From Hellea sp. (GTDB lineage Bacteria; Pseudomonadota; Alphaproteobacteria; Caulobacterales; Maricaulaceae), in NCBI GenBank assembly GCA_020630275.1, contig JAHDBU010000002.1:18708-60974 (forward strand): a stretch of 42,267 nucleotides of DNA, given 5' to 3'. The notes beneath the pieces are model-generated. The model searched no databases, was not told the DNA's origin, and saw nothing but the letters and a program-made list of their open reading frames with translations. Every line of letters begins with the position of its first letter. The stretch's first letter is position 1. This document shows, one piece after another, positions 19,791 through 40,083 of this stretch. The translations under genes and the position numbers were made by a program.

Positions 19791-21893
19791 ATGCCTTTTA
19801 GTCTCTCATCAACACCGCCCTCCCCCACAAAAAAGCCCCATACAATCGAACAACTCGGCCGCAACCGAACCGATAATTATGCCTGGATGAAAGATGACAA
19901 CTGGCAGGCCGTTATGCGCGATACGTCTTTGTTGGATTCAGAAATCCGGACCTATCTCGAGGCCGAAAATGCCTATACCGAAACGGTATTGAAACCATTG
20001 GACGATCTAAAAACTCAAATATTCGAGGAGATGAAAGGCCGATTAAAAGCGGATGACGCGGACGTGCCGGCCCCCGATGGCAACTATGCTTATTATCATC
20101 GATACCGTGAAGGCGACCAACATGGGATTTATGCACGCCGACCCATTGCGGATGGCGATATCGATAAGGGGGGCAAAGAAGAAATCCTGCTTGATGCGGA
20201 TGCATTGGCCAAGGAAAATCATGGCTTCTTCGATCTTGGTAGCGTCGTCCACAGCCGGGATCACAAACGTTTGGCCTATGCCCTCGATAATAAGGGCTCA
20301 GAAAATTACGAGATTTTCCTTTGTGATCTGGCCAGTGGCAAAGTGGAGAGCTCAGGCATAGAAACCAGTACAGGGGGCGTTGTTTGGGCTGCCGACAATG
20401 CCACACTATTCTGGACCGAACGAGATGAAAACCAGAGACCTTATGCGGTGTTCCGACAAAATATTGACGGGTCTGATGATAAAACCCTGGTTTACCAGGA
20501 AAGCGATCCGGGATTTTTTGTCTCGGTCTCAGAGACCGATGCCCGCGCCTTTATCGAAATCAGCGCTCATAATCATACAACTACTGAAATCTGGTTGGTT
20601 CCCGCTGACAAGCCTGAAGGCGAACCCAAGTGTTTTTCAGAGCGGCAGAGCGGACGGGAATACAGCCTGCATGAGCAGGGCGGAAATTTCTATATTTTGA
20701 CCAATACGAATGGGGCTGTGGACTTCCAAATCATGCAGACACCTATGGATAATCCCGGCAAATGGGAGCCCTTTATCGCCCATAAACCCGGGTCTCTCAT
20801 CCTGGGCATGGAAGCCTATGAGAACCATTTGGTTTATCTCGTGCGAGAAAACGCACTGCCCCGCATTGTTATAATTGACATGAAAACGGGGGATGCCCAC
20901 GATATCGCTTTTGATGAAGAAGCCTACGGACTCGGGCTAAAAGGCGATCAGCCCTATGAAAGCCGGTGGATGCGGTTTGTATACTCCTCTCCGACCACAC
21001 CAGCACAAACCTTTGACTATGATATGGACAGCCGGGAGCGCAAACTCCGCAAAACACAAGAAATCCCCAGCGGGCATAATCCGAGTGATTATAAAACCGA
21101 ACGACTCCACATCAAAGCCCGCGATGGTGAAACTGTACCCGTTACGTTGGTTTACAAATCCGACTTAGATTTGACCCAAAAACCGCCTTGCCTACTCTAT
21201 GGTTATGGCTCTTACGGGATCACCATTGCGGCCGGTTTCCGAACCCACATTTTACCATTGGTCGACCGGGGTTTTGTCTACGCCATTGCCCATATTCGCG
21301 GTGGAATGGCCAAGGGATATCAATGGTATCTTGACGGCAAGCTGGAGAAAAAAACCAATACCTTCAACGATTTTGTCGATGTTGGGCGCGGCCTTTGTGA
21401 AAAAGGGTATACAAAGCGCGGGCATCTCTATGCTCATGGTGGATCAGCGGGAGGCCTTTTGGTCGGTGCAGCGCTCAATCAGGATACTGGGCTATGGGGC
21501 GGCGTTATTGCAGCCGTTCCTTTTGTGGATGTGCTCAACACCATGAGTGACGATTCGTTGCCCCTCACCCCGCCGGAATGGCCAGAATGGGGAAATCCTC
21601 TAACTGACGAGGCCGCCTATGACCGGATCAAAGCCTATTCGCCCTATGACAATATTTCGGACGCGGATTATCCGCCGCTCTTTATTTCTGGAGGGCTGAC
21701 AGATCCGCGCGTTACCTATTGGGAGCCGGCAAAATGGGCGGCACGTCTAAGAGATCATCAGACAGGCAACGCCCCGATCCTGCTCAAAATCAATATGGAG
21801 GCTGGACATCAAGGCGAAACAGGCCGTTATGACAGCCTAAAGGAAGCCGCGCTTGAATATGCTTTTGCTGTTGCAGCAGCGGGGTTAGATTAA
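19791..21893 (+). CDS. ptrB: Oligopeptidase B (S9A prolyl-oligopeptidase family)
   Basis: 700 residues, matching the usual length. An N-terminal seven-bladed propeller (about 70-420) covers a C-terminal alpha/beta-hydrolase domain. The catalytic serine lies in HGGSAGGLL (about residue 548), the aspartate in GGLTDPRVTYWEPAKW (about 639) and the histidine in AGHQGETGRYD (about 672). HIRGGMAKGYQWYLDGKLEKKTNTFNDF is typical of this group. It cleaves short peptides after basic residues in the cytoplasm. AGGA lies eight bases before the ATG. Its stop overlaps the convergent TPR gene. No signal peptide. Confidence 0.94.
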   Translation: MPFSLSSTPPSPTKKPHTIEQLGRNRTDNYAWMKDDNWQAVMRDTSLLDSEIRTYLEAENAYTETVLKPLDDLKTQIFEEMKGRLKADDADVPAPDGNYAYYHRYREGDQHGIYARRPIADGDIDKGGKEEILLDADALAKENHGFFDLGSVVHSRDHKRLAYALDNKGSENYEIFLCDLASGKVESSGIETSTGGVVWAADNATLFWTERDENQRPYAVFRQNIDGSDDKTLVYQESDPGFFVSVSETDARAFIEISAHNHTTTEIWLVPADKPEGEPKCFSERQSGREYSLHEQGGNFYILTNTNGAVDFQIMQTPMDNPGKWEPFIAHKPGSLILGMEAYENHLVYLVRENALPRIVIIDMKTGDAHDIAFDEEAYGLGLKGDQPYESRWMRFVYSSPTTPAQTFDYDMDSRERKLRKTQEIPSGHNPSDYKTERLHIKARDGETVPVTLVYKSDLDLTQKPPCLLYGYGSYGITIAAGFRTHILPLVDRGFVYAIAHIRGGMAKGYQWYLDGKLEKKTNTFNDFVDVGRGLCEKGYTKRGHLYAHGGSAGGLLVGAALNQDTGLWGGVIAAVPFVDVLNTMSDDSLPLTPPEWPEWGNPLTDEAAYDRIKAYSPYDNISDADYPPLFISGGLTDPRVTYWEPAKWAARLRDHQTGNAPILLKINMEAGHQGETGRYDSLKEAALEYAFAVAAAGLD

Positions 21894-22807
21894 GGCGTGA
21901 TACCGGCCTGGCGTTTAAGTTGGGTCAACTTGCTCTGATTGCCTTCGTTGCGGTCCAATCGGCCATTATTCATTTCCGTTTCCAGAATACGAGCTGCAAT
22001 ATCAAAGCGCTTATAAAATTCATGATATTGAACAAGTTTGGATAAATCTTCTTTTGAGTTCAGTAACCGCAGATCATAAAGCTTGGCATAAACCTGATAG
22101 GCTTCGAAGGTTTTATCTTGGGATGCCAGCGCACTGATTTGCAGGTCCCAGAGCTTGCGTTCCTGAGGCCATTGGGCCGTCATGGCCTGTAATATACCGA
22201 GCTGTTTATCCGGCTTGCCCAAGGTATGATAAAGATAATTCATCAAATCATAATGCTTGCGCGCCTTGGGGCTCTTTGCTGCGAACCAGCGCTCTGCCCA
22301 AGGCAAGGCCCTGTCATATTTTTCCGCCTGCACCAAGGCCTGTACCAAGGTCTCAAGATATTTGACATCCTGTCGGCCCGTTTTACGCAGCCAGTTCTCC
22401 ATCCGGCTCGCACCTGTTTCATATTGTTTAGTACGGATATAGAGCTGGGCAATCGTTAGTTCGGCATTAGTAGCGTCTGTCGGTGAAAGACCCCCTGCAG
22501 ATACTGCGTTTTCAAAATGCCGAATAGCATTTTTATAGTCCTTATCCTGATAGGTTACCTGGCCCAGCATTTGTTCGACCGTCGAAATTTCATAAGGCGA
22601 AAGACTTTTTATCTTGCGGACATCTTTGAGGCGTTTTTCCGCCTTGGAATATTTGCCATCGGCAATATAGCCCATGGCTTTTTCCATGGATTTTTTCGTC
22701 TCGACAGAGAATGTCCTAGCTTGATCTTGGGCTTGGCTGGATTGGGCTATCGCCACAGTCGCAACCCCCAATGTTAAAGCCAGAAGGACAGAACGAATAA
22801 TGCGCAT
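21890..22807 (-). CDS. Secreted TPR protein, short paralogue of the TonB-associated TPR proteins
   Basis: 305 residues with a signal peptide ending in SSQAQD, so periplasmic. TPR-type helical repeats follow (AMGYIADGKYSKAEKRLKDV, YKNAIRHFENAVSAGG, RALPWAERWFAAKSPKARKHYDLMNYLYH). It shares the order and many motifs of the 490- and 493-residue TPR proteins at 24409 and 26247, including ERKLWDLQISALASQ and ILETEMNNGR, but stops where those continue into a Cys-containing C-terminal third. Likely a partner of the TonB at 23008, which lies just upstream on the same strand. It has no cysteine-rich part. Confidence 0.75.
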   Translation of the reverse strand: MRIIRSVLLALTLGVATVAIAQSSQAQDQARTFSVETKKSMEKAMGYIADGKYSKAEKRLKDVRKIKSLSPYEISTVEQMLGQVTYQDKDYKNAIRHFENAVSAGGLSPTDATNAELTIAQLYIRTKQYETGASRMENWLRKTGRQDVKYLETLVQALVQAEKYDRALPWAERWFAAKSPKARKHYDLMNYLYHTLGKPDKQLGILQAMTAQWPQERKLWDLQISALASQDKTFEAYQVYAKLYDLRLLNSKEDLSKLVQYHEFYKRFDIAARILETEMNNGRLDRNEGNQSKLTQLKRQAGITP

Positions 22808-22942: not shown

Positions 22943-22946
22943 TGAG

Positions 22947-22965: not shown

Positions 22966-23007
22966 CGCGAGCTTCAGGCTTTCGCCGGAAATAGAGAGCT
23001 CAGGGGA

Positions 23008-23649
23008 TTAGCTTTCCGGCAGGATACGACCGCGCTCGTCTTTGACTTGATAGGTTATCTTGGTTTCGACCCCGATCATATCAACCGGGATGCCGTCCTT
23101 GATTTTCGCCAGATATTTGAATTTGCGCGTGGCATCGATCGCATTCTTTTCAAACATTTTGTGACTGCAATGATAAGCGACGACATTGAAGGGCTTGCCA
23201 CGCGTATCCACATTAAAACGCATCCGGCAATGACCTGAAAGACCCGCTTCCAATGCACGGTTGGGAACTTTCGCCACCACGCGTTGGATTGGCTGTGCCT
23301 GCTTATCAACTGTCATTGTGTCGGCCGGCTTAATATCGATCTCCGGCCGTTCAAATTTGACCTTTTTGACCTGACTAGAGTCAATGGGTTGCTCTTTTGG
23401 TATATTAACCTTGTCCGTTTCGATGGCGGTAATACGCGGCGGAACATCGACCTGCTTATAGTCCTTTGGTTTGATAATCTTAAGAGGTGGCGGAAGCTCG
23501 GGCTGTTTGGTTTCGAGAAAGATCGCAATCGGTTCGTGTTCCTGCTCTGCTTCGAACTCGACATGAATAAGCTTGACCATAACCAAGCCCAAAGCCGTGA
23601 CCATAAAAACGGCCCCTATGGCCGGTCCGGTAATTCTGGATATCAACAT
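23008..23649 (-). CDS. tonB: Energy transducer TonB, satellite copy
   Basis: 213 residues. One N-terminal membrane helix (about 9-27), a Pro/Lys-containing periplasmic linker (QPELPPPLKIIKPKD) and a C-terminal TonB domain (about 125-213): SGHCRMRFNVDTRGKPFNVVAYHCSHKMFEK, ATRKFKYLAKIKDG, VETKITYQV. TonB carries energy from the inner-membrane ExbB-ExbD motor to outer-membrane receptors. The C-domain has two cysteines also present in the copy at 27768, suggesting a disulfide. No exbB/exbD is adjacent, so it must use the core set. The promoter region resembles that of the TPR gene at 25881. GGGAGGA stands six bases before the ATG. Confidence 0.88.
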   Translation of the reverse strand: MLISRITGPAIGAVFMVTALGLVMVKLIHVEFEAEQEHEPIAIFLETKQPELPPPLKIIKPKDYKQVDVPPRITAIETDKVNIPKEQPIDSSQVKKVKFERPEIDIKPADTMTVDKQAQPIQRVVAKVPNRALEAGLSGHCRMRFNVDTRGKPFNVVAYHCSHKMFEKNAIDATRKFKYLAKIKDGIPVDMIGVETKITYQVKDERGRILPES

Positions 23650-23654
23650 AACAT

Positions 23655-23707: not shown

Positions 23708-23718
23708 TAGTATAACAT

Positions 23719-23747
23719 AAAAAAGAAAAAGCCCCCTGAAAGGAGGC
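23719..23747 (-). terminator. Rho-independent terminator of the DoxX gene
   Basis: On the minus strand GCCTCCT-TTC-AGGGGGC (23747-23731, one mismatched pair) is followed by TTTTTCTTTTTT. It lies 26 bases after the DoxX stop and just upstream of the satellite tonB promoter. Confidence 0.75.
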
Positions 23748-23773
23748 CTTGCTCTAGTATATTTGACAGTTCC

Positions 23774-24259
23774 TTAGACGATCGGTGGCCCAAATAATGC
23801 CTCTTTGATTTTGCCTAGACCAAACGCCAGTTCCTTACGGTTTAAGAAAAGAAGTGCAGCGCAGCTCAACCAGACTCCACAAGCCATAACAAACAGTAGT
23901 CCGCCATCATTATTCGGATCGATTCCCAATGGTGTCATCGTGTGGAAAAAGATGGCTCCCGTCATGATACATAGTCCCAGCAAAGCACCAAAAGCCTGAA
24001 GCCGACGGAAACGGGGCAATATACCCAAAAGCAACATGACAGAGGCGATAAACTCTGCGCCACCAATCACATATTGGGAAAACAGCCCTGATTGTGCAAA
24101 CAAGCCCTCGGCCCCAAAGCTGGCAGCCCAAGCATCGAGCTTCCCAAAAATAGTTTGGGTATTTGGATGATTGGTGAACTTGAACCGCAGACTATCCAGA
24201 AAAATTATACTACAATAAATAGCCAGGACAGCTGGCAAAAAACGCACAAATTTATTCAT
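23774..24259 (-). CDS. DoxX-like four-helix membrane protein
   Basis: 161 residues with four membrane helices. The pattern of a first helix with FLDSLRFKFTNHPNTQTIFGKLDAW, then YVIGGAEFIASVMLLLGILPRFRRLQAFGALLGLCIMTGAIFFH, fits the DoxX/DoxD-like inner-membrane family, whose roles range from redox stress to solvent exposure. The exact function is unknown. It stands alone between a promoter/operator region (24264-24319) and its own terminator (23719-23747), inside the block of TonB-related genes. Confidence 0.75.
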   Translation of the reverse strand: MNKFVRFLPAVLAIYCSIIFLDSLRFKFTNHPNTQTIFGKLDAWAASFGAEGLFAQSGLFSQYVIGGAEFIASVMLLLGILPRFRRLQAFGALLGLCIMTGAIFFHTMTPLGIDPNNDGGLLFVMACGVWLSCAALLFLNRKELAFGLGKIKEALFGPPIV

Positions 24260-24263
24260 AAAT

Positions 24264-24293
24264 ATGGCCCCTTAAAAATCTCGTTGGGGCCAT
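24264..24293. promoter_or_regulatory. Dyad over the transcription start of the DoxX gene
   Basis: ATGGCCCC and GGGGCCAT form perfect 8-base arms 14 bases apart, ending four bases from the DoxX start codon. One arm touches the -10 box; the other overlaps the AAGGGG ribosome site. Because transcription should start within the loop, it is more likely a DNA operator than an RNA hairpin. Confidence 0.45.
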
Positions 24294-24319
24294 TCTAATC
24301 TATCGGTCTGTTATTACAA
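24292..24319 (-). promoter_or_regulatory. Promoter of the DoxX gene
   Basis: -35 TTGTAA at 24319-24314, 16-base spacer, -10 TAGAAT at 24297-24292 on the minus strand. Confidence 0.5.
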
Positions 24320-24408
24320 TCCGGTTTCCATAGGTCATCCCCAGGCATTGCCCGATGCCAGCCGTAGCACTGTAATCTGAGCCGATGTCATTGGGCTTTA
24401 CGATGCGG

Positions 24409-25881
24409 CTAGAGCCCATGCCGGAAAGTCCTGTCATATTCGTCTTTGTAGACCAGGCAGTATTGGTCTTTGGGGGCTAGATAGAACTCGCCTCTAATGA
24501 CCATCATTTTGTAAGCGCTTTCAATTTTAATAAAACAGAGATCTCGACGGATTTTCTCGCTTTCGGCACAATAGTTATCGAAAGACTCGTTTTCGGCCAC
24601 GACGAATTCCGTCCACTTCCGGGCAGCGCCAGCGTTCTTCGCTGTTACTGGAACTTTCTTGAAATAGGACAGGGCTTTCGCGTTAAGTGCAATTTTTCGG
24701 CTATTCTCACGGTCTTTGACGACAGCCCCTTCACATTCTGGGCGATGCTCCAGTTGACCTCGCTCATACCAGCAATTCCCAACAAACATCCAGGATTTGC
24801 CCCGGTCATAGCCCAGACCCATGGCTCGGGAAAATGCGGTTTCGGCCTCTTCGCATTGGCCCTCATTATAGAGCGCTTCGCCGTATTGTGCCCAAGTTTT
24901 GCCCTGCCCGGTCATTTCCGCAGCCTTTTTTAGAATCGGAATAGCGCGTTCGTATTCGCGAGCCTGGCGAAACAGTTCAGACAAACGTATCAGGTTTTTT
25001 CCGTCCGTTTTTACCCGCCCGACGTTCATCTCCCGTTCGAGTATCAAGCCAGCCTGATAAGGCATGTCGTAATATTGGTAATATTCGACAATCTTTTTGA
25101 TCTCAGGCTCAGTCTCTATATGACCAGCCAAGTAAAGCAGCTTTTTGACTTCAAATGCTTCATCGTCCCGCCCACTTTGGGCCAGAAGCGACACCCAACT
25201 ATTCCAGAGGGTTCGGTCGTCTGGCCAACGGGCGATCATCTCTTTGATGAGGTCCGCCTGGGCGCCATCACGATTTGTATGATGATAGAGGAAGTTCAAC
25301 AGATCGTAGTGCTTACGCTCTTTGGGTTGCGCCGCAGCGAACCAGTCCTCTGCGCACTCAAGCGCCGCCTGATAGTTTTCGGCCTTGATATATGCCTGAT
25401 AAATGGTCAGGGCGTGTTCACCACATGGATCAGAAGGTGTGCCGACAACGGATTGCAAAAGGCGCACGCCGTCAACATATTGCCCGGATCCAATCAACAA
25501 TAGCGCTTTGTGCTTTGTGAATTCGCGGGACTCATCTTCGTTTAAACCGCCGGCCTGGATCGCCAAGTCAAAACTAGAAATCGCCGCCGGAAGATCATCA
25601 AGCTCATACTGGAGCTGCGCCATCATGCCGTGAATGCTCGAACGTTCATAAGCGCTAAGATCAGTGAGGGTCACGGCCTCGCCGAGCTTGTTAAGAGCCG
25701 CCGAAAAATTCTGCGATTTGATCAGATCTTGTGCATCAACCACTTTTTGACCAGCCGCTGTACCGAATTGACGGTTAGCATCCGACTGCGCCTGAACCGG
25801 TGTCGAAAATATAAAGGCGGCAAAGACCGAACCTAAACATGCTTTTTGAAAGGTGTTCTTACACCGCTGCAGAAACAACAT
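24409..25881 (-). CDS. Secreted TPR protein with Cys-containing C-terminal region (satellite copy)
   Basis: 490 residues, signal peptide ending near STPVQAQ. TPR repeats fill most of it: DLIKSQNFSAALNKLGEAV, LPAAISSFDLAIQAGGL, AALECAEDWFAAAQPKERKHYDLLNFLYHH, RQAREYERAIPILKKAAEM. The C-terminal third holds six cysteines in the same places as in the paralogue at 26247 (GQCEEAE, GNCWYE, PEC, NYC, DLCFIKIE, QYC). Two more cysteines (SDPC, LEC) are unique to this copy and may pair. It is likely a periplasmic partner of TonB, as TPR genes commonly close TonB/ExbB/ExbD operons. It has its own promoter, related to that of the satellite tonB. AGGGAGGAG precedes the ATG. Confidence 0.8.
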   Translation of the reverse strand: MLFLQRCKNTFQKACLGSVFAAFIFSTPVQAQSDANRQFGTAAGQKVVDAQDLIKSQNFSAALNKLGEAVTLTDLSAYERSSIHGMMAQLQYELDDLPAAISSFDLAIQAGGLNEDESREFTKHKALLLIGSGQYVDGVRLLQSVVGTPSDPCGEHALTIYQAYIKAENYQAALECAEDWFAAAQPKERKHYDLLNFLYHHTNRDGAQADLIKEMIARWPDDRTLWNSWVSLLAQSGRDDEAFEVKKLLYLAGHIETEPEIKKIVEYYQYYDMPYQAGLILEREMNVGRVKTDGKNLIRLSELFRQAREYERAIPILKKAAEMTGQGKTWAQYGEALYNEGQCEEAETAFSRAMGLGYDRGKSWMFVGNCWYERGQLEHRPECEGAVVKDRENSRKIALNAKALSYFKKVPVTAKNAGAARKWTEFVVAENESFDNYCAESEKIRRDLCFIKIESAYKMMVIRGEFYLAPKDQYCLVYKDEYDRTFRHGL

Positions 25882-26198: not shown

Positions 26199-26225
26199 TA
26201 AAAAAAACCCCGCTCAAGGCGGGGT
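26199..26225 (-). terminator. Rho-independent terminator of the core TonB operon
   Basis: On the minus strand ACCCCGC-CTTGA-GCGGGGT followed by TTTTTTT, starting 22 bases after the TPR stop. A textbook terminator. Confidence 0.92.
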
Positions 26226-26246
26226 CCTTTAGAGTTCTTTCACAAA

Positions 26247-27728
26247 CTATTGTTTCGTCGTCCGATACTCGGCGTCATATTCCGCCTTGAACTTGGTGCA
26301 GTGCTTATCCTCATCCTTTAGGAAGAAGCCACCCTTAATAATCTCAAGCTTATAAGCATTCTCGATTTTGATCATGCACAAGTCTTTCGCCAGCTTAGCC
26401 CGCTCTTCGCAGCGTGTCTCGAAGGACTTGTTTTCAGTGGTCACAAAGTCAATCCACTTCTGGGCAGAACGGTAATCACGAGCTGTCGCCGGTACCTTTC
26501 GGAAAGCTGCCAAGGCCTGTTCATTGAACTTGACCTTGTTTGTCGCCATGCGTTGCTCAGGTGTTGTATTGACACAGGATGGACGCTCTTCTTTTTGTCC
26601 CTGCTCATAACGGCAGTTGGCGATCAACATCCATGACTTGCCCCGATCATAGCCCATATCCATGGCACGTTTGAGATTTGACTCAGCCTCTTCGCAGCGG
26701 CCTTGGTTATACAGCGCCTCGCCATACTGCGCCCAAGATTTGGAACGGCCTGAGGCTTCGGCAGCCCGCTTAAGGATCGGTAGCGCGCGCTCATATTCTC
26801 GCGCCTGACGGAAGAGTTCTGACAAACGCACCAAGTTCTTGGCGTCGGCCTGCACTCGACCAGCGTTCATTTCCTTTTCGAGGATTTGAGCGGCCTGAAA
26901 CGGCATCTCGTAATACTGATAATATTCAATGACTTTTTTGATGTCGCTTTCGCTGGTCATAGCACCGGCCAGATACAGCATTTTGTTCACTTCGAAGGCG
27001 TCCTGTTCCCGACCACCCATGGAGAGTAGCGAGATCCAGCTATCCCAAAGGGATTTGTCTTCGGGCCAGCGACCGATCATCTCTTTGATGATGTCTGCCT
27101 GGCGACCTTGCATGCCCAAGTCGTTGTAGAGGAAGTTCAGCAAGTCAAAATGCTTACGCTCTTTCGGACTTGCATTCCGGAACCACTTCTCGGCCCAGGG
27201 CAGAGCCTGTCGGTATTGCTCGGCTTGGACCCAGGCTTGCATAATGTACTGAACATATTTCGGGTCTTCCCGACCCTGACGGCGCACCCACGCTTCGAGA
27301 CGCTGAGCACCTTCGACATATTGACCATTGGCAATCAACAGCTGAGCGATATTATTCTCGTAGGAGTCGACCTCATTCGGCAGCAACCCACCCGCATTAA
27401 CGGCGTTCTGGTAGTTTGAAAGAGCGGACCCCAGATCATCTACTTCATAATAATATGCACCCATCATGGAATAAATGGTTGAGCGCTCATAAGCATTCAG
27501 TTCTGGTAGTGAAATGGCCTCATTCAGTTTAGAAATCGCCGCACTATACTGTTGAGACTGCGCCATGGTTTGCGCATCGTTCACGATCTGACCCGCGGCT
27601 GAACCAAACTGGCGACCCTCAGCCTGTGCTTCTGCAACAGGGGTAAACGTCGTCGTGACCGCCAATGATGTTGTCAACGCTAACGCAGCTGCTGCCGTAA
27701 ATTTAACCAGTGTGTTTTTCAGTTTCAT
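26247..27728 (-). CDS. Secreted TPR protein, last gene of the core TonB operon
   Basis: 493 residues, signal peptide ending near PVAEAQ. It is built from TPR-like repeats (MAQSQQYSAAISKLNEAI, LGSALSNYQNAVNAGGL, RQALPWAEKWFRNASPKERKHFDLLNFLYND, RQAREYERALPILKRAAEA). The C-terminal third has six cysteines (GRCEEAE, ANCRYE, PSC, TRC, DLCMIKIE, KHC), matching the paralogue at 24409, plausible for periplasmic disulfides. In other bacteria a TPR gene follows exbB2-exbD2-tonB2; its role is thought to be in organising the TonB complex or its receptor partner. It lies 39 bases after tonB and before a strong terminator. Confidence 0.85.
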   Translation of the reverse strand: MKLKNTLVKFTAAAALALTTSLAVTTTFTPVAEAQAEGRQFGSAAGQIVNDAQTMAQSQQYSAAISKLNEAISLPELNAYERSTIYSMMGAYYYEVDDLGSALSNYQNAVNAGGLLPNEVDSYENNIAQLLIANGQYVEGAQRLEAWVRRQGREDPKYVQYIMQAWVQAEQYRQALPWAEKWFRNASPKERKHFDLLNFLYNDLGMQGRQADIIKEMIGRWPEDKSLWDSWISLLSMGGREQDAFEVNKMLYLAGAMTSESDIKKVIEYYQYYEMPFQAAQILEKEMNAGRVQADAKNLVRLSELFRQAREYERALPILKRAAEASGRSKSWAQYGEALYNQGRCEEAESNLKRAMDMGYDRGKSWMLIANCRYEQGQKEERPSCVNTTPEQRMATNKVKFNEQALAAFRKVPATARDYRSAQKWIDFVTTENKSFETRCEERAKLAKDLCMIKIENAYKLEIIKGGFFLKDEDKHCTKFKAEYDAEYRTTKQ

Positions 27729-27760
27729 CTTCCGAAATCTCCTAGAAATCAGGTGGAGGG

Positions 27761-27779
27761 CTGCCGGTTATTCCGGCAG
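27761..27779 (-). promoter_or_regulatory. Intercistronic RNA hairpin with the tonB stop codon in its loop
   Basis: On the minus strand CTGCCGG-AATAA-CCGGCAG is a perfect 7-base stem; the TAA in the loop is the stop codon of tonB (27770-27768). No T-run follows, so it should not terminate; it may stabilise or process the mRNA, or slow the ribosome at the stop. Confidence 0.55.
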
Positions 27780-28409
27780 AATGTTTCCGCGCTCGTCGGA
27801 TACACGATAGGTAATTTTGGTTTCAACACCGCGCATCTCAACCGCGTTCCCGTCGACAATTTTTGGACGGTATTTGAATTTGGACGTCGCGCGGATTGAT
27901 TCCCGCTCGAACATACTGTGCGAACAGAAATAGGCCTTAATGTTAAAAGGTACACCGCTCGTGTTCACATCGAACCGCATTTTGCAGTGGCCAGATTTAC
28001 CATCACGCAGGGCGCGATCCGGAACCTTGCCTGGCATACGGACGAGAGGCTGTGCATCACGATCACTAACCTGGATCTTGAAATCTTTCCGGTCCAGCTT
28101 TGGCTTTTCGAATTCTGGAACAGCACCCGTTACCGTCGCAATCGCTTCCGCAGGACGGCTGGCTTCTTCAACTTCAATACGCGGAGCCGGCGGCGGGGTT
28201 TCAACGTCCCGGCTACGGGTTGCTCGCTGAACAGTCCGGCGGCGTTCAACAATCTCTTCCGCTTGCGGATTGATCTCAAAATCAAGAGCCTCGAGCTTTT
28301 CCTTGGCTTCGAACTCGTCACTGATCAGGAATATCATGAACAGGAACAAACCGACCGTGATCAAAAACGCTAACGGTGTTGCGATAATGAATCTAATGAG
28401 AGATTTCAT
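27768..28409 (-). CDS. tonB: Energy transducer TonB, core copy
   Basis: 213 residues. A membrane helix at about 8-29, a linker with TPPPAPRIEVEE, and a C-terminal TonB domain (SGHCKMRFDVNTSGVPFNIKAYFCSHSMFER, ATSKFKYRPKIVDG, VETKITYRV). The two C-domain cysteines match those in the satellite copy at 23008; both proteins are 213 residues long and align throughout, so they are clear paralogues. It lies 15 bases after the second exbD. The linker is Arg-rich (ERRRTVQRATRSR) and lacks the long Glu-Pro/Lys-Pro repeats of enteric TonB. Confidence 0.92.
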   Translation of the reverse strand: MKSLIRFIIATPLAFLITVGLFLFMIFLISDEFEAKEKLEALDFEINPQAEEIVERRRTVQRATRSRDVETPPPAPRIEVEEASRPAEAIATVTGAVPEFEKPKLDRKDFKIQVSDRDAQPLVRMPGKVPDRALRDGKSGHCKMRFDVNTSGVPFNIKAYFCSHSMFERESIRATSKFKYRPKIVDGNAVEMRGVETKITYRVSDERGNILPE

Positions 28410-28424
28410 AATTCATACCTTCCT

Positions 28425-28823
28425 TTATTTGGTCGATACGCGGGTCTGGATTTCCAGATCCTGTACCATATCCTGAATATCCCAAATGACACCGGATGAA
28501 GCCTCGCGATCGCCAATGATAATCGCTGTCGCTTCTGGAGTTTCATCCTTCATGGACTGGAGAATTGGACGAATCTCATTCACCTCATAAGGCTGATCGG
28601 CAATCCATATCTCGTCTATCTCGTTGACAGCAATGAGAATTGTCGGATTCCACTCTTTGTCTTCATCGGCAAATGGCTTAGTCGGCTCGATACCGGCTGG
28701 TTTGACGAATACGGTCGTAACGATGAAGAAAATCAGCAGAATAAATACGACGTCCAGCATAGGAGTCATGTTCAATTCGGTATCTTCTTCCTGTACATCG
28801 ATTCTTGATCGTCTTCTTGACAT
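28425..28823 (-). CDS. exbD: ExbD-type biopolymer transport protein, second copy
   Basis: 132 residues. One membrane helix with NMTPMLDVVFILLIFFIVTT, including the conserved Asp that carries protons in ExbD/TolR/MotB relatives, then a periplasmic domain (PTILIAVNEIDEIWIADQPYEV). ExbD works with ExbB to turn proton flow into motion of TonB. It lacks the cysteines of the neighbouring ExbD. The 39-base gap to the preceding exbD is AT-rich. Confidence 0.93.
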   Translation of the reverse strand: MSRRRSRIDVQEEDTELNMTPMLDVVFILLIFFIVTTVFVKPAGIEPTKPFADEDKEWNPTILIAVNEIDEIWIADQPYEVNEIRPILQSMKDETPEATAIIIGDREASSGVIWDIQDMVQDLEIQTRVSTK

Positions 28824-28862
28824 GTCGTTACCTTATTACATTATTGGATTAAAGTCAATGTT

Positions 28863-29276
28863 CTAGCTGCTTTTACCAACGACCTCGAACTTGGTTTTGA
28901 GGTTTCGCTTGGTAAATTTGTCCTTCAACATGACTTGAACATAGTGATCAGCTGCGTAATGAACACGGATCAACACAGTCGCACCAGGCTTATTGGCCAG
29001 ATGACCTTCGACCGCGATATCGACTTCTGTACACTCCCTTGGGAAGCCTTCAACAGAACATAAACTTTGCTCGTCGACATAAACCGGGATGACCGGTTTT
29101 GGTTCACCTGAGCTTTGTCCGCCGCCATCCGCGGGACGGGTAAAGTCAAGGCCTGTTTCGTTCAAGAATGTCGCTGTCACGATGAAGAAGATCAGCATGA
29201 TGAAGACGATGTCCAGCATTGGTGTCATATCGACGCCGCTATCATCATCTCCCAGTTTTCTACGGGCTTTACGCAT
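28863..29276 (-). CDS. exbD: ExbD-type biopolymer transport protein, first copy, with periplasmic Cys pair
   Basis: 137 residues. The membrane helix contains DMTPMLDIVFIMLIFFIVTA with the proton-carrying Asp. The periplasmic domain has two cysteines ten residues apart (LCSVEGFPREC), absent from the second copy, suggesting a disulfide. Starts directly after the exbB stop with no gap. Two different ExbD proteins in one operon suggest a mixed ExbD dimer or two alternative motors; this is inference. Confidence 0.93.
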   Translation of the reverse strand: MRKARRKLGDDDSGVDMTPMLDIVFIMLIFFIVTATFLNETGLDFTRPADGGGQSSGEPKPVIPVYVDEQSLCSVEGFPRECTEVDIAVEGHLANKPGATVLIRVHYAADHYVQVMLKDKFTKRNLKTKFEVVGKSS

Positions 29277-29807
29277 CTAGAGTCTCCCTAAATCGTCGGA
29301 GAATTTCGCTGTCTCGCGACGGGCACGACGCTCAAAATAGGTCGGGAAGAACATCCCGGAAAGAGCGATGGTCATACCGGCCATGGTTGGAATGGTTGCC
29401 TTGAAGATACCGCCAGCCATATCGCGAGCATTGGATGAGCCAGACAAGGCCATCTTATCGAACACTTCGATCATCCCTGTCACCGTTCCAAGCAGACCCA
29501 GAAGCGGCGCCAGAGCGACCATGGTTTTGATAATATCAACATTTTGCGATGTATTGGCTTTGACCTCTGAGATCAGCTCGTCCTTGATCGCCAAGGCTCT
29601 CCAGGATGTTTTGTCTTCACGAGCACCCCATTCACTTTTCAGGCGGCGCAGCATGGATCTATGCCCGACCTGATAATAAGCGACGCGTTCGAAAATAAAG
29701 GCCCAGAGGAAAAACGCCAGGATCATAATAGCGAGTAGAACTGGTCCCCCGCTATTGAGAAACTGCTGAAGACTAGCCAGCGCGTTTACCGGATTGAGAA
29801 GTTCCAT
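29277..29807 (-). CDS. exbB: ExbB-type proton channel protein (MotA/TolQ/ExbB family)
   Basis: 176 residues with three membrane helices. GSGGPVLLAIMILAFFLWAFIFER-type first helix, then [24 protein letters not shown] and GGIFKATIPTMAGMTIALSGMFF, the standard ExbB/TolQ core. It forms the pentameric channel around ExbD in the inner membrane. GGGAGG stands seven bases upstream of the ATG. A perfect hairpin separates it from the longer ExbB-like gene. Confidence 0.93.
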   Translation of the reverse strand: MELLNPVNALASLQQFLNSGGPVLLAIMILAFFLWAFIFERVAYYQVGHRSMLRRLKSEWGAREDKTSWRALAIKDELISEVKANTSQNVDIIKTMVALAPLLGLLGTVTGMIEVFDKMALSGSSNARDMAGGIFKATIPTMAGMTIALSGMFFPTYFERRARRETAKFSDDLGRL

Positions 29808-29825
29808 TGGTTTCCTCCCAGTGGA

Positions 29826-29844
29826 GCGGCGCCTTAGGCGCCGC
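29826..29844 (-). promoter_or_regulatory. Intercistronic RNA hairpin with a stop codon in its loop
   Basis: On the minus strand GCGGCGCC-TAA-GGCGCCGC is a perfect 8-base stem whose three-base loop is exactly the stop codon of the TtpC-like gene (29836-29834). The ribosome site of exbB (GGGAGG) follows after a few bases. No T-run, so not a terminator. Confidence 0.6.
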
Positions 29845-31219
29845 GGTTCTCAACGTGGCGAGCCACGATACCGGCCGACTGCTCTTCCAGTGTGGATTGA
29901 ACTCCACGGGCCAGAGACGAACAGAAGCTGTGCAGGATCAGGAGCGGAATCGCCGCAATCAGACCCAACATTGTCGTAACAAGCGCTTCCGAAATACCGC
30001 CAGCCATTGTCTGGGCGTTACCTGTACCGAAGATTGTCATAGCCTGGAAGGTCTTGATCATACCTGTAACAGTACCGAGAAGACCCATCAGAGGCGCGAT
30101 ACCAGCACCGAGCTTTAAGAGGCTCAGTCCAAACTCGAGCTTAGGTGTCTCTTTCAGGATAGCTTCGTCAATCGCGAGCTCAACAGCATCGCCACCACGG
30201 TCTTTTACGCCCTCATAGGCAGACATGACGCGACCTAGCGGATTTTTACCTGGCTGAGACTTACGCTTCTGGCCGCGGACAGCAGCAGAAATCGCCATCA
30301 AGCGCAGGATATTAAGAATACCGAAAATCGCACCAACAGCTAACAGGCCGAGGATCAGCTTACCAATCCAGCCACCCTGATTGATCCGCTCCATTGTTGT
30401 CGGATAACGATCAAAGGTCTTGACCAAAGAGCCCCGAGTCGGATCGATTGGCGCGTAAACAACGTCGCCAGCACTCGCGGATCCGACACGCCCAGCAGCC
30501 GCATTCGGCTCACCGCCACGTTGACGCTTTGGCATAGAAAGTGGCAACTGACCACGAGAGGCCGCAGAAGAGGTGTAGCTCAAAAACTCGCCGCCTGATT
30601 TTGTAAAGACTGCGAACGGGCCGACCCGAGTGACATCTACGGGCTCACCACTATTGTGGTTAGCAACCTGAGCCTGGAAGGTTTTGACCTCACGCTGGGC
30701 GCGGATCTCGTCCAACATGGTTGTGTACATCAGGTTCAACTGCTCAGTTGTCGGCAACGCTTTTGACTCAGCAATTTTTTCCAGCTCGGCTGTCCGGCCT
30801 GGCATCTCGGCTGACACCATGGAGTTATCCAGTGTTGCACGAAATTCACCAGCTTTTGTGCGAGACAGACCAAAAACTTCACTAAATTCACCGGTTGCGG
30901 CATCACGCTCGGCTGTCAAATTGGCGATCAGGCCGTCATTCCGGCTGAACTGGCCGCGAATTTGCGCTTCGCGAGCCTCTAGCTGGCGCAGCTCTGAGCG
31001 CGCCTCAGACAGAAGTCCGGCACGGCTGTCACGTTCAGCACGGAATTTTGCTTCTCTTTGGCGATTTTCCTGCAAAACCTTTGCGGAGTCCGAACGGATT
31101 TGACGCAGAACGTCTGAAACGGACTGGGCTTCGGCAGAAGCAGGTACCGTTGCGATAAATGCAGACGCGGCAATCAGCGCGACCATACATGATTTTAACA
31201 TTTTCATTGGATTTCTCAT
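29834..31219 (-). CDS. Long ExbB-family protein with coiled-coil N-terminus (TtpC-like)
   Basis: 461 residues. A signal peptide ending in SAEAQ, a charged coiled coil (about 30-110, [18 protein letters not shown]), a linker domain, then the MotA/TolQ/ExbB region: a first helix ([20 protein letters not shown]), [23 protein letters not shown] and [26 protein letters not shown]. This layout is that of TtpC, an added component of the Vibrio TonB2 system. The precise symbol is withheld because homology beyond architecture cannot be tested here. It directly precedes exbB and follows DUF3450. ATG at 31219; a GGGGG stretch lies ten bases upstream. Confidence 0.87.
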
Positions 31220-31240
31220 TTTAACAATACCCCCAAATTC

Positions 31241-32002
31241 CTATTGCGCCAGCTTTACTGGAATGCTGACCATGCCCTGAGTGGCTTCACCCTTGGCCAT
31301 CCGAATGGCTTGACGCATTTGAAGCGCAAGACCGGAGTCGACAGACTCCCAACTCTTGGAACCCAGGTCATAAAACTTTATTTCGTCTTCTTCTTTCGTC
31401 ATATAAACAAATGACACACGCCCAAATCGAAGATAATCAACTGTGCGCTGAGCATCATCAGGGTGCGGGCCTTCATAAGAATTAACGCCCTGCCCGTAAG
31501 TCACCTCGTTCTGGTAAGCTGTCAGAATTTGACGATATTGCTCAACAGGTGCGATCGCTGGATCAGAAAGATTCTCCATTACACGGTGAACATCTGCCAG
31601 GCGGCGCTCAACGTTGAACGGATAATCTTTACGAATTTCCTCTTCCAAGGCGACGGCCATCCGAATCATCATAGGCACAAGATCCTGCTTGGTCTGCTCG
31701 ACTGTCGACAACTGCTCTCGTAAAGAGGCAATCTCGTCCGTTTGAGACTCCAAATAAAGCTCTTGGCGTTTCACGAAAATATCTAGACTGTCCTTTCGCT
31801 GCAACAGAGCAGAGTATTCACGCTGCATATCCCCGGCTTCATCATCCAATTTTTCAACCGTCTGCTGAGACGCAGCACTTGATTGAGTTGACTGCCGTGC
31901 TTCTCGAAGCGCTTCATCCAGCTGAGCTGATGCTGAAGACGCAAAAGCAACCGTGGCAACCCCCGCCAACAAAATGCATTTTGCTGTTTTTAAGTTCGAC
32001 AT
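31241..32002 (-). CDS. DUF3450 periplasmic protein, copy next to the TtpC-like gene
   Basis: 253 residues, signal peptide ending in SSASAQ. A long coiled coil (about 30-110) is followed by the DUF3450 core: MMIRMAVALEEEIRKDYPFNVERRLADV, YQNEVTYGQGVNSY, YLRFGRVSFVYMT and LRQAIRMAKGEA-like ending. DUF3450 genes start TonB2-type operons with TtpC in several proteobacteria; function unknown, likely periplasmic partner. The ATG at 32002 is chosen for GGAAGGAA upstream and because the signal peptide begins there; the frame opens further to 32134. Confidence 0.85.
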   Translation of the reverse strand: MSNLKTAKCILLAGVATVAFASSASAQLDEALREARQSTQSSAASQQTVEKLDDEAGDMQREYSALLQRKDSLDIFVKRQELYLESQTDEIASLREQLSTVEQTKQDLVPMMIRMAVALEEEIRKDYPFNVERRLADVHRVMENLSDPAIAPVEQYRQILTAYQNEVTYGQGVNSYEGPHPDDAQRTVDYLRFGRVSFVYMTKEEDEIKFYDLGSKSWESVDSGLALQMRQAIRMAKGEATQGMVSIPVKLAQ

Positions 32003-32052
32003 GGTTTCCTTCCAACTTAGTTTCATTTGTTTACCCACTAAGTGAGCTGTTC

Positions 32053-32093
32053 GTATGGGCGGCATAAAACACGCCATTTTTTGCAACCCATAC
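32053..32093 (-). promoter_or_regulatory. Long stem-loop between the two DUF3450 genes
   Basis: GTATGGG (32053-32059) pairs with CCCATAC (32087-32093); inside, GCA and AAAA pair with TTTT and TGC across two small mismatches, leaving a 7-base loop. About 14 base pairs in all. No T-run follows on the minus strand. Probably an mRNA processing or stability element in the 115-base gap. Confidence 0.5.
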
Positions 32094-32117
32094 GGCTTGC
32101 AAAATTCTTCAAATTCA

Positions 32118-33029
32118 TCATTCAGCGACAACAACCGGGATCTTCATAACGTCCACGGCAGCCTCACCTTTTGCCATTTTCACAGCGCGAAAGAGAGCAA
32201 TTTGATCAGCCCCTTCGACCGGAATCCACCCCTCTTGCGGATCAGACTCACCCGCTGCAATGGCATCCCGCTTGCCTTTTACATCAAATTGCAAAACCTC
32301 GCCGCCATCGACATCCGCATAAATCAACGCTAAGCGACCGACACGTAAGTAATTCCCATCGAAAAGCTTACGCTCCTCATCGAATTGCTTGACCATCGCC
32401 TTCATATCAGCAGCATCGCGCTCGTTGAACGCATCCAGCTCACCAAACTCTTTACCCGTCTTATCCCGGATTTTTTCCCTCATATCGGAAGTCACATTAC
32501 AGCCTTCATTTAAAAGACTTTCCTGACAAGCTGATAACCGCCAACCGGCACGCGCTTCGAGAGGATGGTTACCTGGATATTGCTCAACCGTCATTCCATA
32601 ATTGACCTCTGCTTCGTACATTCCGATGGCACGACGCAACATGGAAGCAGGTGTAGAACTACCGTCTTTGAGCTGGTCCTGCAATTTCACCAGGCGCTCA
32701 TTACGTTCAGCAGCATTGAACGGCGGGTCTATACTATACTCTGCAGCATAAGAGTCCACCATGCGCTTCACGAGATCTGGGACAGCCCCCTTGATACCAG
32801 GAACCGCCTCAATCTCGGCTCTAAGCGAAGCTATTTTAGCTTCTTGGGTTTGAACTTCCAACTCAAGTTTCTTCACCTTGACAGTCAGCGCATGGCGCTT
32901 GTCAAGCAATTGAGCGTAATTCGCAACAGCGTCATCTTGCGCTTGCGCAACACCCCCAATTATCACGGATATAGCCGACCCTATGATCAGCCTTTGAACA
33001 TGGCGATTTGCGGTGGGAAAGTATACCAC
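32118..33029 (-). CDS. DUF3450 periplasmic protein with Cys-containing insertion, first gene of the core TonB operon
   Basis: 303 residues. Signal peptide ending in GVAQAQ, a coiled coil (about 35-80, KVKKLELEVQTQEAKIASLRAE), then DUF3450-type blocks: LVKRMVDSYAAEYSIDPPFNAAERNERLVKL, YEAEVNYGMTVEQYPG, YLRVGRLALIYADVDGGEVLQFD and FRAVKMAKGEAA. Compared with the copy at 31241, it has an extra segment of roughly 60 residues with two cysteines (SACQESLLNEGC) between the second and third blocks. GTG at 33029 is supported by AGGAGG six bases upstream. Confidence 0.82.
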   Translation of the reverse strand: MVYFPTANRHVQRLIIGSAISVIIGGVAQAQDDAVANYAQLLDKRHALTVKVKKLELEVQTQEAKIASLRAEIEAVPGIKGAVPDLVKRMVDSYAAEYSIDPPFNAAERNERLVKLQDQLKDGSSTPASMLRRAIGMYEAEVNYGMTVEQYPGNHPLEARAGWRLSACQESLLNEGCNVTSDMREKIRDKTGKEFGELDAFNERDAADMKAMVKQFDEERKLFDGNYLRVGRLALIYADVDGGEVLQFDVKGKRDAIAAGESDPQEGWIPVEGADQIALFRAVKMAKGEAAVDVMKIPVVVAE

Positions 33030-36990: not shown

Positions 36991-39900
36991 CTAGTACTTG
37001 ATGTTAGCACCAACGAAGAGGAAGCGACCACCCGCGTCATAGACACCAGCAACAGTATTCGCTTCGACGTTTACGCCACTTACACCAAAGGTAGTCACAA
37101 TCGGTGGATCATTGTCTAGCACGTTGTTGACACCCGCACGCAGCGTTATTTTCTCACTCAGATCATAGAAACCCGCAAGATCAATATAGCCCGTCGCATC
37201 AATCGAGTCATCAATCGAGGCTCCGCCATCCGCTTGTACCGAAGTCACCGCTCCGGTTCCACCAAGGACGTTATCAATTGTTCCAACTTGATCCAATCCG
37301 GAGAAATAGCGCCAAACTGCAGAAATCCGGGCATCCCAAGGTGTCTGCCAAGATGTTTGGAAATTATGACGATATTCATGATTTGGGCTACCACAACCAG
37401 CGGCAAAGAACCCTGTACAATCATATGTCGGCGTACCAGGGACATCTGTAGATTCCTGTGACAACATCAAAGTAGAGTTGTAGTTAAAACTAACGTCACC
37501 CCAATCACCAATATCCGTCTTATACATTGCTTGGAAATCGATACCACTTGTAGCAAAGCCGGCAACGTTCTGAGAAGTTGTCGTAATAAAAGCTTGCTCA
37601 CGAGGGAAGAAAGTCAAGGACCCATCAGGTCCACGCTGGATCAAATCACAGAATGCAGCATCACCTGTAGCCAGGCAATTATTAAGAGTATTTGAAGCAG
37701 GTATCGTTGAAATCGCATCATCAAGCGTGATATCGAAATAATCAACAGAAAGCGTCAAACCACTTGCCCAACTTGGTTGATAAATTGCACCTAAAGTGAA
37801 TGTGTCTGAAATTTCAGGCGTTAGATCCGGGTTACCACCCGTAAGCGTGTTTAGCTGACCGGAGTCCGCTGGAACCAAGCCGTACAAACTGGTTGGCAGT
37901 CCTGTATTTGCACACTGAGCTGCAGTCGGCCCGTCATTTGCGCCTGGATTAGTCCCCGAACACGGATCAGACAAAGAGGCCAAACCTGAATTTTGCGGGT
38001 TAAATAATTCTAACACATTGGGCGCTCGAATTGCTCGCTGATATTGTCCTCGGATCCGTAGATCAGAGATTGGATCAACTGTGAGACCAATCGCATAGGT
38101 ATTTACGCCAAAGTTACCACCTTTCCGGTTAAGAAGCACGTCTTCCGAGGAATAATCAGAGTGTCGGAACGCTCCATTTAAACTTGCGCCAAAACCAGAT
38201 TCAGACGCTGTAGCCAATGGAAGGATTGCCTCCGCAAAAACCTCGTACAACTCGGTCTTGCCATTCGCTGGAGTTGTTGCGCCACCGGAACCGACAAGGC
38301 CGCCAGAAGACGCAATACCGTCAGCTTGCTGGAAAAGTGTGTCTTGGCGATATTCAAATCCGACAAGAGCATTCATCCCTTCGTCTGCCCAAGGTGTTTT
38401 GAAACCGACTTCGGTTCCCACTGTGCCACCAAACACAGCTTGGGTAGACTTACCTGTAGTCAAGGTGGGAGTATCCACATAGGCTGGCAATAGAGGCGAA
38501 GAGGGTACGTTAAGATCATAAGCTGACGTGAAAGGTACGCAGCTAGGATCTGTTCCATTAACCGCAACCCGGCAGGCTGGCAATCCAGTAGCAGGGTCAG
38601 TTACGATATCAAGTGCATTGGACAAGTTCGTAAATGTCACCTGGTTAAATTGTACCCGCGACAGGCCTGTTTCGGAATACTGTCCAAATACATCGTAATT
38701 TAATCCAGAAATGTCTCCCCTGAATCCACCGAGCACACGGAAGTTCGTTCGAGACCGATCGTCCGTTCTAGGCCCGCCTTCAACAAAACGACGTCGGATA
38801 TTAGCTTGAGCATATCCGTCTCCATCCACATCGCGTGGGAAAGGACCGTTTATATCACCATTACCGCAAATCAACGCACGAGCTTCGTCTGTTAAGACCG
38901 GGTTATCACAATTCACTCGGTTAATCGAAGAACCAAAAGCCGCCGAAGGCGCGATAATCTGAGGCGAGCTAGATGACGTGAATCCAAAGTCCATATACGC
39001 TTGAACATCTTCGTTGACGTCATAGTAACCAGTGAAACCTGCATTAAACCGTTCGACTTCTCGCCGAATGGGATTAAACGGATTGAAGTTAAATGCGTTC
39101 GTAAAACCACTGTTAAGTGACGCATCCGGCTGAAGAGAAAACACACCAGATGTCAACGGATTTCCGTCATCGTCAAGACCGATGAAGTTGCCATTAATGT
39201 CCACAATCGGAACGCCAACACCTGTTGCGTCATTTTGGTTGCTTACGACAAACGTCGTCGGAAATGGTCCTTGGTTTGACCCCAAACAAATGAGCTCTGA
39301 GTCTCCGATCGGGAATGTCGCACATTGCGAGAAGTCACGATTTCCCTGTTGTATCCCATCGTTTTTAGCGTAGTTGAAATATCCAGTGACATTTCCTCTG
39401 CCGTCGCCCAAGCCAGTTCCAACCAAAGCTGCAGCTTGGAACGTGTCGTTGTCTGTGACGCTTCCCGTTACAGGTTCGATTCCAGCGTTTTGAAGATTTT
39501 CACGCCAAAACTCACTATTGTTGTTTGACTGGTTAAACCCATATTGCAAATCAACCTCGACGCCCTCAAAGTCTTTCCGCGTAATGAAGTTAGCAACACC
39601 AGCAATCGCATCTGAACCGTAAACCGCAGATGCACCGCCCGTCACGATTTCAACTCTCTCTACAAGCTGAGGAGCAATCAGGTTCAAGTCGGCTGCGAAA
39701 CCACCGAGAGGTCCACCTGGAGGCAGTCGCTTCCCATCAACAAGAACCAAAGTTCGCACAGATCCTAGCCCACGCAGGTTAAGTGTTGATGTACCTGTCG
39801 CTCCGTTTGCAAAAGCTGTTGTTTGTGCTGCGTATGCAGATGGTAATGTATTGACCAAATCAATTGTATCGACCGTGCCACGTACGTCAAACAACTCCTC

Positions 39901-40083
39901 GTCCACGGTAACAACCGGGCTGGACGAAACAACGTTTGCAGACTGAACAATCCGCGAACCGGTTACAACGATCTCATCGTCTTCCTCAGCTTCCTGAGCA
40001 AAGGAAGAGCCTGAAACGCCCATAGACACTGCGGCGACAAGCATGGTCGAGCGCAGTAAATACTTCTTAATGTGTGAATTCAC
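36991..40083 (-). CDS. TonB-dependent outer-membrane receptor
   Basis: 1030 residues. Signal peptide ending in SSFAQE, TonB box DEIVVTGSRI (about 36-45), plug domain with TSTLNLRGLGSVRTLVLVDGKRLP and VERVEIVTGGASAVYGSDAIAGVANFITRK, then a 22-strand-type barrel ending in the aromatic FLFVGANIKY. The sequence is of the large Caulobacter/sphingomonad-type receptors often used for complex carbohydrates or peptides; there is no signal-transduction N-domain. Substrate unknown. GTG at 40083 is supported by AAGGGG eight bases upstream. Energy would come from the TonB/ExbBD genes at 21890-33029. Confidence 0.95.
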   Translation of the reverse strand: MNSHIKKYLLRSTMLVAAVSMGVSGSSFAQEAEEDDEIVVTGSRIVQSANVVSSSPVVTVDEELFDVRGTVDTIDLVNTLPSAYAAQTTAFANGATGTSTLNLRGLGSVRTLVLVDGKRLPPGGPLGGFAADLNLIAPQLVERVEIVTGGASAVYGSDAIAGVANFITRKDFEGVEVDLQYGFNQSNNNSEFWRENLQNAGIEPVTGSVTDNDTFQAAALVGTGLGDGRGNVTGYFNYAKNDGIQQGNRDFSQCATFPIGDSELICLGSNQGPFPTTFVVSNQNDATGVGVPIVDINGNFIGLDDDGNPLTSGVFSLQPDASLNSGFTNAFNFNPFNPIRREVERFNAGFTGYYDVNEDVQAYMDFGFTSSSSPQIIAPSAAFGSSINRVNCDNPVLTDEARALICGNGDINGPFPRDVDGDGYAQANIRRRFVEGGPRTDDRSRTNFRVLGGFRGDISGLNYDVFGQYSETGLSRVQFNQVTFTNLSNALDIVTDPATGLPACRVAVNGTDPSCVPFTSAYDLNVPSSPLLPAYVDTPTLTTGKSTQAVFGGTVGTEVGFKTPWADEGMNALVGFEYRQDTLFQQADGIASSGGLVGSGGATTPANGKTELYEVFAEAILPLATASESGFGASLNGAFRHSDYSSEDVLLNRKGGNFGVNTYAIGLTVDPISDLRIRGQYQRAIRAPNVLELFNPQNSGLASLSDPCSGTNPGANDGPTAAQCANTGLPTSLYGLVPADSGQLNTLTGGNPDLTPEISDTFTLGAIYQPSWASGLTLSVDYFDITLDDAISTIPASNTLNNCLATGDAAFCDLIQRGPDGSLTFFPREQAFITTTSQNVAGFATSGIDFQAMYKTDIGDWGDVSFNYNSTLMLSQESTDVPGTPTYDCTGFFAAGCGSPNHEYRHNFQTSWQTPWDARISAVWRYFSGLDQVGTIDNVLGGTGAVTSVQADGGASIDDSIDATGYIDLAGFYDLSEKITLRAGVNNVLDNDPPIVTTFGVSGVNVEANTVAGVYDAGGRFLFVGANIKY

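Follow-up and report, generated by a model that had tools for sequence, protein, structure and literature searches.

A TtpC-type Ton operon with tandem duplications of ExbD and DUF3450 in Hellea sp.

An eight-gene TtpC-type operon and its relatives

The stretch of DNA analysed here (the window) comprises 42,267 nucleotides of the Hellea sp. assembly GCA_020630275.1 (contig JAHDBU010000002.1, positions 18,708 to 60,974 of the forward strand). It contains an operon of eight consecutive minus-strand open reading frames (ORFs), running from 33029 to 26247 in the order DUF3450-A, DUF3450-B, TtpC, ExbB, ExbD1, ExbD2, TonB and TPR, which is a TtpC-type (Vibrio TonB2-like) Ton system with two tandem duplications, one of DUF3450 and one of ExbD. 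The best explanation of the whole, which we regard as probable by a modest measure, is that the operon encodes a general Ton motor of the TtpC type, in which ExbD1 and ExbD2 together form the axle and the DUF3450 proteins act as periplasmic accessories.

The eight genes, their order and their coordinates had been given by an earlier reading made from the letters of the window (the sequence-only reading); all the ORFs are present, and the Pfam matches agree (DUF3450 twice, MotA_ExbB twice, ExbD twice, TonB_C and TPR families). That reading had also recognised a TonB2/TtpC-type energising operon, which is borne out by gene content, gene order and the ExbD clade. A ttpB gene (DUF3450-B) lies directly before ttpC, TtpC is long and has a periplasmic N-terminal domain, and the TPR gene comes last; the pore Thr of ExbB, the transmembrane (TM) Asp of ExbD and the C-terminal domain of TonB are all present, and ExbD falls within the TtpC-type clade. 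None of the NCBIfam equivalog models reaches its cut-off with any of the eight proteins, and the TolR model scores the two ExbDs at 38 and 23 bits (cut-off 127). These low scores, together with a separate TolQ/TolR-like pair on contig C73 that groups with TolRs in the tree, indicate that the operon is not a Tol-Pal (TolQR) system.

The likeness to the Vibrio TonB2 system lies in gene order and, copy number apart, in gene content (TtpB is a DUF3450 protein, TtpC a long ExbB and TtpD a TPR protein). In V. vulnificus all six products of ttpB2-ttpC2-exbB2-exbD2-tonB2-ttpD2 are required for TonB2-dependent siderophore uptake (PMC6957404), and the same six genes are found in Teredinibacter turnerae (PMC10734418). 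Where the canonical six-gene operon has one ttpB and one exbD, the Hellea operon has two of each, and it is followed by a separate TonB-TPR cassette. Doubled ExbD is known in Xanthomonas, Flavobacterium and Sphingobium (PMC3551730, PMC8599685). The tonB-exbB-exbD1-exbD2 operons of Xanthomonas campestris (PMC3551730) and Sphingobium SYK-6 (PMC8599685), the latter with the Asp kept in both ExbDs, resemble the Hellea operon in having tandem ExbDs beside ExbB and TonB, but they begin with tonB and are without TtpB, TtpC and TtpD, and the Hellea operon departs from them on both counts. The AglR-AglQ-AglS motor of Myxococcus xanthus (PMC3169522), likened here by description and not by sequence, also combines a single ExbB/TolQ-type protein with two distinct ExbD/TolR-type ones, but it drives gliding and is without TonB, TtpB and TtpC.

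The terminator-like hairpin after the TPR stop codon makes the eight-gene limit reasonable. DUF3450-A starts at a GTG preceded by AGGAGG; the DUF3450-B ORF is open to a TTG at 32134, and the ATG at 32002 is the likelier start, giving 253 residues, the usual length in relatives. A promoter scan came out near chance level and was not used.

For comparison, about 100 neighbourhoods were collected and annotated with profiles built from the window genes. The six-gene type (DUF3450, TtpC, ExbB, ExbD, TonB, TPR), which has the gene order of the Vibrio operon ttpB-ttpC-exbB-exbD-tonB-ttpD, was found at 15 loci, all but three outside Alphaproteobacteria. A seven-gene type with two ExbDs was found at 35 loci; these belong to the window's family, to two more families within the order and to several alphaproteobacterial families besides (at two of the loci the ExbDs stand in swapped order). 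The eight-gene type, with two ExbDs and two DUF3450s, is complete at 40 loci, which are confined to one part of the window's family. Since the same genes recur there in the same order, the eight-gene order is not due to chance. The neighbourhood search that had been proposed for paired ExbDs next to DUF3450 and TtpC thus returns 75 complete alphaproteobacterial loci, and ExbD1 and ExbD2 are side by side in all 75. Two ExbDs in the ttp operon are the rule within the alphaproteobacterial families sampled and are not special to this genome; the single ExbD taken as the norm by the sequence-only reading holds for gammaproteobacterial loci.

All of the 99 genomes taken from the window's family have a DUF3450 match (in 98 it exceeds the curated cut-off); in wider samples this cut-off was passed in 10/142 genomes across the class and 16/150 across the phylum. 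When 84,980 species genomes were scanned for DUF3450-A with one degenerate motif, which could miss distant relatives, 35 loci were returned, partly from the same genomes as the 40 complete loci and with the eight-gene order kept as far as the contigs reach. Their genomes are labelled Hellea, Litorimonas, Robiginitomaculum, or unnamed Caulobacterales, Hyphomonadaceae or Alphaproteobacteria; the NCBI taxonomy places Hellea and Litorimonas in Maricaulales, Robiginitomaculaceae. In these searches the second DUF3450 is confined to the Hellea-Litorimonas-Robiginitomaculum clade. No description of the eight-gene order, of a doubled DUF3450 or of an ExbD heterodimer in Ton systems was found in the open-access literature searched; doubled ExbD is already known elsewhere, though separately arisen.

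The assembly, which is 77% complete, contains three ExbD-family genes (the operon's pair and one TolR), and its four MotA/ExbB-family genes are TolQ, TtpC, ExbB and a fourth, on a different contig, that is interpreted as MotA; no non-Tol ExbD was found in the assembly outside the operon. It also contains 15 Plug matches, corresponding to about 15 TonB-dependent receptors, one of them within the window. Three or four ExbD-family genes are likewise present in 25 of the 27 mostly complete genomes of the order. With no other Ton motor found, some 15 receptors to be served and low ExbD counts across the order, the operon most likely serves the cell as its general Ton motor and is not an additional, dedicated system. 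The ttp accessory proteins of Vibrio, which have been described as peculiar to vibrios and certain marine bacteria, would then also be part of the Ton motor in a group of marine alphaproteobacteria.

Descent and divergence of the duplicated proteins

In the window, ExbD1 and ExbD2 are identical at 40 of 130 aligned residues, and cysteines (C73, C82) are present in ExbD1 only. The clear divergence that had been claimed for both duplicated pairs, ExbD and DUF3450, is confirmed. ExbD/TolR trees were built in a careful version of 58 proteins and a quick one of 135 rows. In the 58-row tree the TtpC-type ExbDs (41 rows) form one side of a 100/100 branch, apart from E. coli ExbD, the TolRs and the classic alphaproteobacterial ExbD pairs. 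Inside them ExbD1 is a clade, with support of 98 in the 135-row tree (Shimodaira-Hasegawa-like approximate likelihood ratio test, SH-aLRT) and 97/76 in the 58-row tree; it spans several alphaproteobacterial families and is the derived, fast-evolving copy, while ExbD2 is the slower one and closest to the gammaproteobacterial single (TonB2-type) ExbD. The pair arose once in the alphaproteobacterial ttp operon, independently of the classic tonB-exbB-exbD-exbD pairs. Inheritance from a Xanthomonas/Sphingobium-like operon was considered and rejected, as the classic-type pairs form a separate clade; those sampled are alphaproteobacterial, and the named Xanthomonas and Sphingobium ExbDs are not among the tree sequences. 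Tandem pairs of separate origin are also seen in the 58-row tree at L177 (99/96), L255 (98/96) and L271 (97/89) and in the classic clade, so ExbD doubling has evolved repeatedly, and independent duplications recur in operons with one ExbB-type gene only. L177, from a different class of the phylum, is a ttp operon in which ExbD was duplicated in tandem independently. Outside the operon, five genomes of the window's family (L289-L293) carry a further ExbD1-like gene that adjoins no ExbB; in it the Asp is kept and the Cys pair is absent.

The proton-carrying TM Asp is kept in 79/79 ExbD1s and 81/81 ExbD2s, and the TM cores are near-identical. The periplasmic domain of ExbD1, modelled with AlphaFold2 (AF2; predicted local distance difference test, pLDDT, 74), has the ExbD fold (best match 8pek, also 8p9r). 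At positions Asp+17/+18, single ExbDs have Lys-Glu; within the clade that has DUF3450-A, Asp-Glu is found in 36/43 ExbD1s and Lys-Thr or Lys-Pro in 40/42 ExbD2s. Directly after these charges comes the segment that in E. coli (residues 44-49; PMC10771500) forms the swapped strand holding the ExbD dimer together. At its centre, where E. coli has Val47, single ExbDs and most ExbD1s have a hydrophobic residue, and 39/81 ExbD2s, that of the window included, have Pro. To judge from these residues, the two ExbDs are now unequal at the dimer-forming segment.

The periplasmic Cys pair noticed earlier in one ExbD proved to be conserved: Cys73/Cys82 is present in 43/43 loci with DUF3450-A and in 0/36 loci without it. 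The association reflects a single evolutionary step, and so is not independent evidence of contact between the two proteins. A disulfide between DUF3450-A and ExbD1 was rejected, since 13 of the 43 DUF3450-A loci with the ExbD1 Cys pair have no Cys motif in DUF3450-A, which makes an internal ExbD1 disulfide more likely than a cross-link.

In nine classic-type alphaproteobacterial ExbB-ExbD-ExbD loci (L256, L259, L261-L267), the downstream ExbD has Asn in place of the Asp, and the upstream one keeps it (9/9). These pairs look like natural one-Asp Ton motors, judging by sequence; they are followed by a TonB_C protein in L264 and by a protein with a weak likeness to TonB in L262.

DUF3450-A forms a clade (support 100) whose sister is the DUF3450-B of those same loci (96; SH-aLRT). 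The same values argued against its import from elsewhere, which was rejected, and DUF3450-A is the product of a younger tandem duplication, later than the ExbD doubling. The gain of the ExbD1 Cys pair, the split juxtamembrane charges and the swapped-strand residues map mostly to the same branch as the second DUF3450. DUF3450-A has a signal peptide and a Cys-pair insert, and its AF2 model (mean pLDDT 84) shows a 68-residue helix, a helical section and a small alpha/beta C-terminal lobe; of the coiled-coil periplasmic parts that had been suggested, the long helix supports the one in DUF3450-A. No match to the fold was found with Foldseek at E<=0.001, VIA-align gave long-helix look-alikes only (best Z 8.5 at a root mean square deviation of 11.7), by which no known relative was found and none excluded, and searches against PDB sequences gave chance coiled-coil matches only. 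TtpC itself carries a DUF3450-related domain, its N-terminal domain and DUF3450-B being alignable across 230 columns (probability 97.5%, E 6e-12), so that the operon holds three DUF3450-type periplasmic domains. The two pore Thr residues (Thr148 and Thr181 equivalents) are kept in 98/98 ExbB and 98/98 TtpC sequences. Where E. coli ExbB has Glu176, a Lys or Arg stands in the short ExbB, and Glu is frequent in the TtpC of Alphaproteobacteria; these opposite charges could mean mixed ExbB-TtpC rings.

A possible asymmetric axle and its alternatives

In the mechanism we propose, the eight genes would encode a Ton motor through which the proton gradient drives the receptors of the outer membrane. 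The pentameric channel would be formed by ExbB, perhaps with a contribution from the ExbB domain of TtpC, and within one ring ExbD1 and ExbD2, both bearing a proton-carrying Asp, would form a 1:1 heterodimeric axle. One TonB peptide would be gripped between the two unequal ExbD periplasmic domains, and DUF3450-A, DUF3450-B, the TtpC N-terminal domain and the TPR protein would surround the motor as an accessory collar or bridge. A mixed-ExbD motor had been suggested by the sequence-only reading, and we likewise infer the heterodimer, together with its place in one ring and the collar. The heterodimer is preferred because the pairing is conserved, the Asp is kept in both copies, the divergence at the dimer-forming segment is complementary, and doubling also occurs beside a single ExbB-type gene. 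Loss of the Asp from one member in nine tandem pairs makes most sense if that member is paired with the other, and since a homodimer with Asn alone would be unable to carry protons by the known route, the nine pairs support ExbD pairing by analogy.

In E. coli, the periplasmic domains of two ExbDs hold a single TonB peptide in a 2:1 clasp (PMC10907165), and this clasp is unequal, with one strand parallel and one antiparallel (PMC10771500). It is possible, if somewhat short of probable, that ExbD1 and ExbD2 are an obligate heterodimer, in which the swapped strand of ExbD1 is competent, that of ExbD2 is broken by Pro, and TonB is always clasped in one orientation. Whether the two copies that grip one TonB play equal roles is a question that homodimers make hard to test; with the two positions encoded by separate genes, each Asp, swapped strand and TonB-binding face can be mutated alone. 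If the asymmetric axle is true, the recurrent ExbD duplications, including the one-Asp pairs, would represent the repeated evolution of asymmetric axles in 5:2 ion-driven rotary motors, built of five ExbB-type and two ExbD-type subunits.

Several points weigh against a single general motor with a mixed axle. In Xanthomonas, exbD2 is dispensable for iron uptake and exbD1 is not (PMC3551730), and paralogous ExbDs can thus work separately. The charge split and the Cys pair are limited to one clade, mostly to one branch, and their coincidence is statistically weak. The completeness of the genome is such that the status of only Ton motor could change, and the MotA label of the fourth ExbB-family gene was given by elimination. 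The presence of two ExbB-domain proteins (ExbB and TtpC) and two TonBs also leaves room for two separate motors. ExbB would then form a ring with a homodimer of one ExbD and the ExbB domain of TtpC a ring with the other, the two motors acting in series or on two TonBs. Such an arrangement would fit the retention of the pore Thr in both ExbB and TtpC, which yet differ at the Glu176 position, and the second TonB found downstream in many loci. We nevertheless consider it unlikely, as gammaproteobacterial loci hold ExbB and TtpC with a single ExbD, and as doubled ExbDs beside a single ExbB-type gene indicate that doubling needs no second ring.

The two ExbDs could also be interchangeable regulators, or substrate-specific, each being homodimeric in the same type of ExbB ring. 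The need for Xanthomonas exbD2 in pectate-lyase induction and not in iron uptake (PMC3551730), and the five genomes of the family with stand-alone ExbD1-like genes, point this way; the strict adjacency of the pair and the Pro in the ExbD2 swapped strand of the window's clade, which should weaken an ExbD2 homodimer, make it an improbable account. That the duplicated genes are redundant, adding to dosage but with no new function, which the duplication itself and nothing else would suggest, is scarcely credible given the long separate conservation of ExbD1 as its own clade across several alphaproteobacterial families, and given the single well supported clade of DUF3450-A, in which specific residues are shared by the window and its relatives.

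Features of the operon and its surroundings

The features are listed in Table 1. In the TonB of the operon, a segment of alternating hydrophobic and polar residues adjoins the TM, with a Pro at its end (conservation analysis).

Table 1. Coordinates in the window of the operon genes, the hairpin that follows them and the neighbouring genes
Feature	Position	Strand	Length (aa)	Characteristics	Basis
DUF3450-A	32118..33029	-	303	Extra TtpB-like protein; clade-specific duplicate	Pfam PF11932, 4e-29; predicted model
DUF3450-B	31241..32002	-	253	TtpB orthologue; in all TtpC-type loci sampled	Pfam, 9e-58
TtpC	29834..31219	-	461	DUF3450-like periplasmic N-terminal domain fused to MotA/TolQ/ExbB domain	Pfam, 2e-28
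ExbB	29277..29807	-	176	Short form; pore Thr kept	Pfam, 1e-23
ExbD1	28863..29276	-	137	TM Asp22; conserved Cys73/Cys82; acidic juxtamembrane segment	Pfam, 3e-16; tree
ExbD2	28425..28823	-	132	TM Asp; basic juxtamembrane Lys; Pro in swapped-strand segment	Pfam, 5e-19
TonB	27768..28409	-	213	N-terminal TM; Cys pair in C-terminal domain	Pfam TonB_C, 2e-10
TPR protein (TtpD equivalent)	26247..27728	-	493	Last gene in nearly all complete loci	Pfam TPR families
Terminator-like hairpin	26202..26230	-		12 pairs and T tail; directly 3' of the TPR stop codon	
TPR paralogue of the TtpD-like gene	24409..25881	-		Next transcription unit	phmmer and hidden Markov model (HMM) matches; Pfam
DoxX-like gene	23774..24259	-		Adjoins Ton-related genes	
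Second TonB	23008..23649	-	213	Downstream TonB-TPR cassette	Pfam TonB_C, 6e-10
Third TPR protein	21890..22807	-	305	Downstream TonB-TPR cassette	Pfam; HMM
TonB-dependent receptor	36991..40083	-	1030	Plug and barrel domains; ~4 kb upstream of the operon	

The list of Ton genes drawn up earlier was right for the eight genes of the operon and had missed the TPR paralogue, the DoxX-like gene, the second TonB and the third TPR protein. Copies of TonB and TPR genes after the ttp operon, as at 21890-25881 in the window, are frequent in the window's clade.

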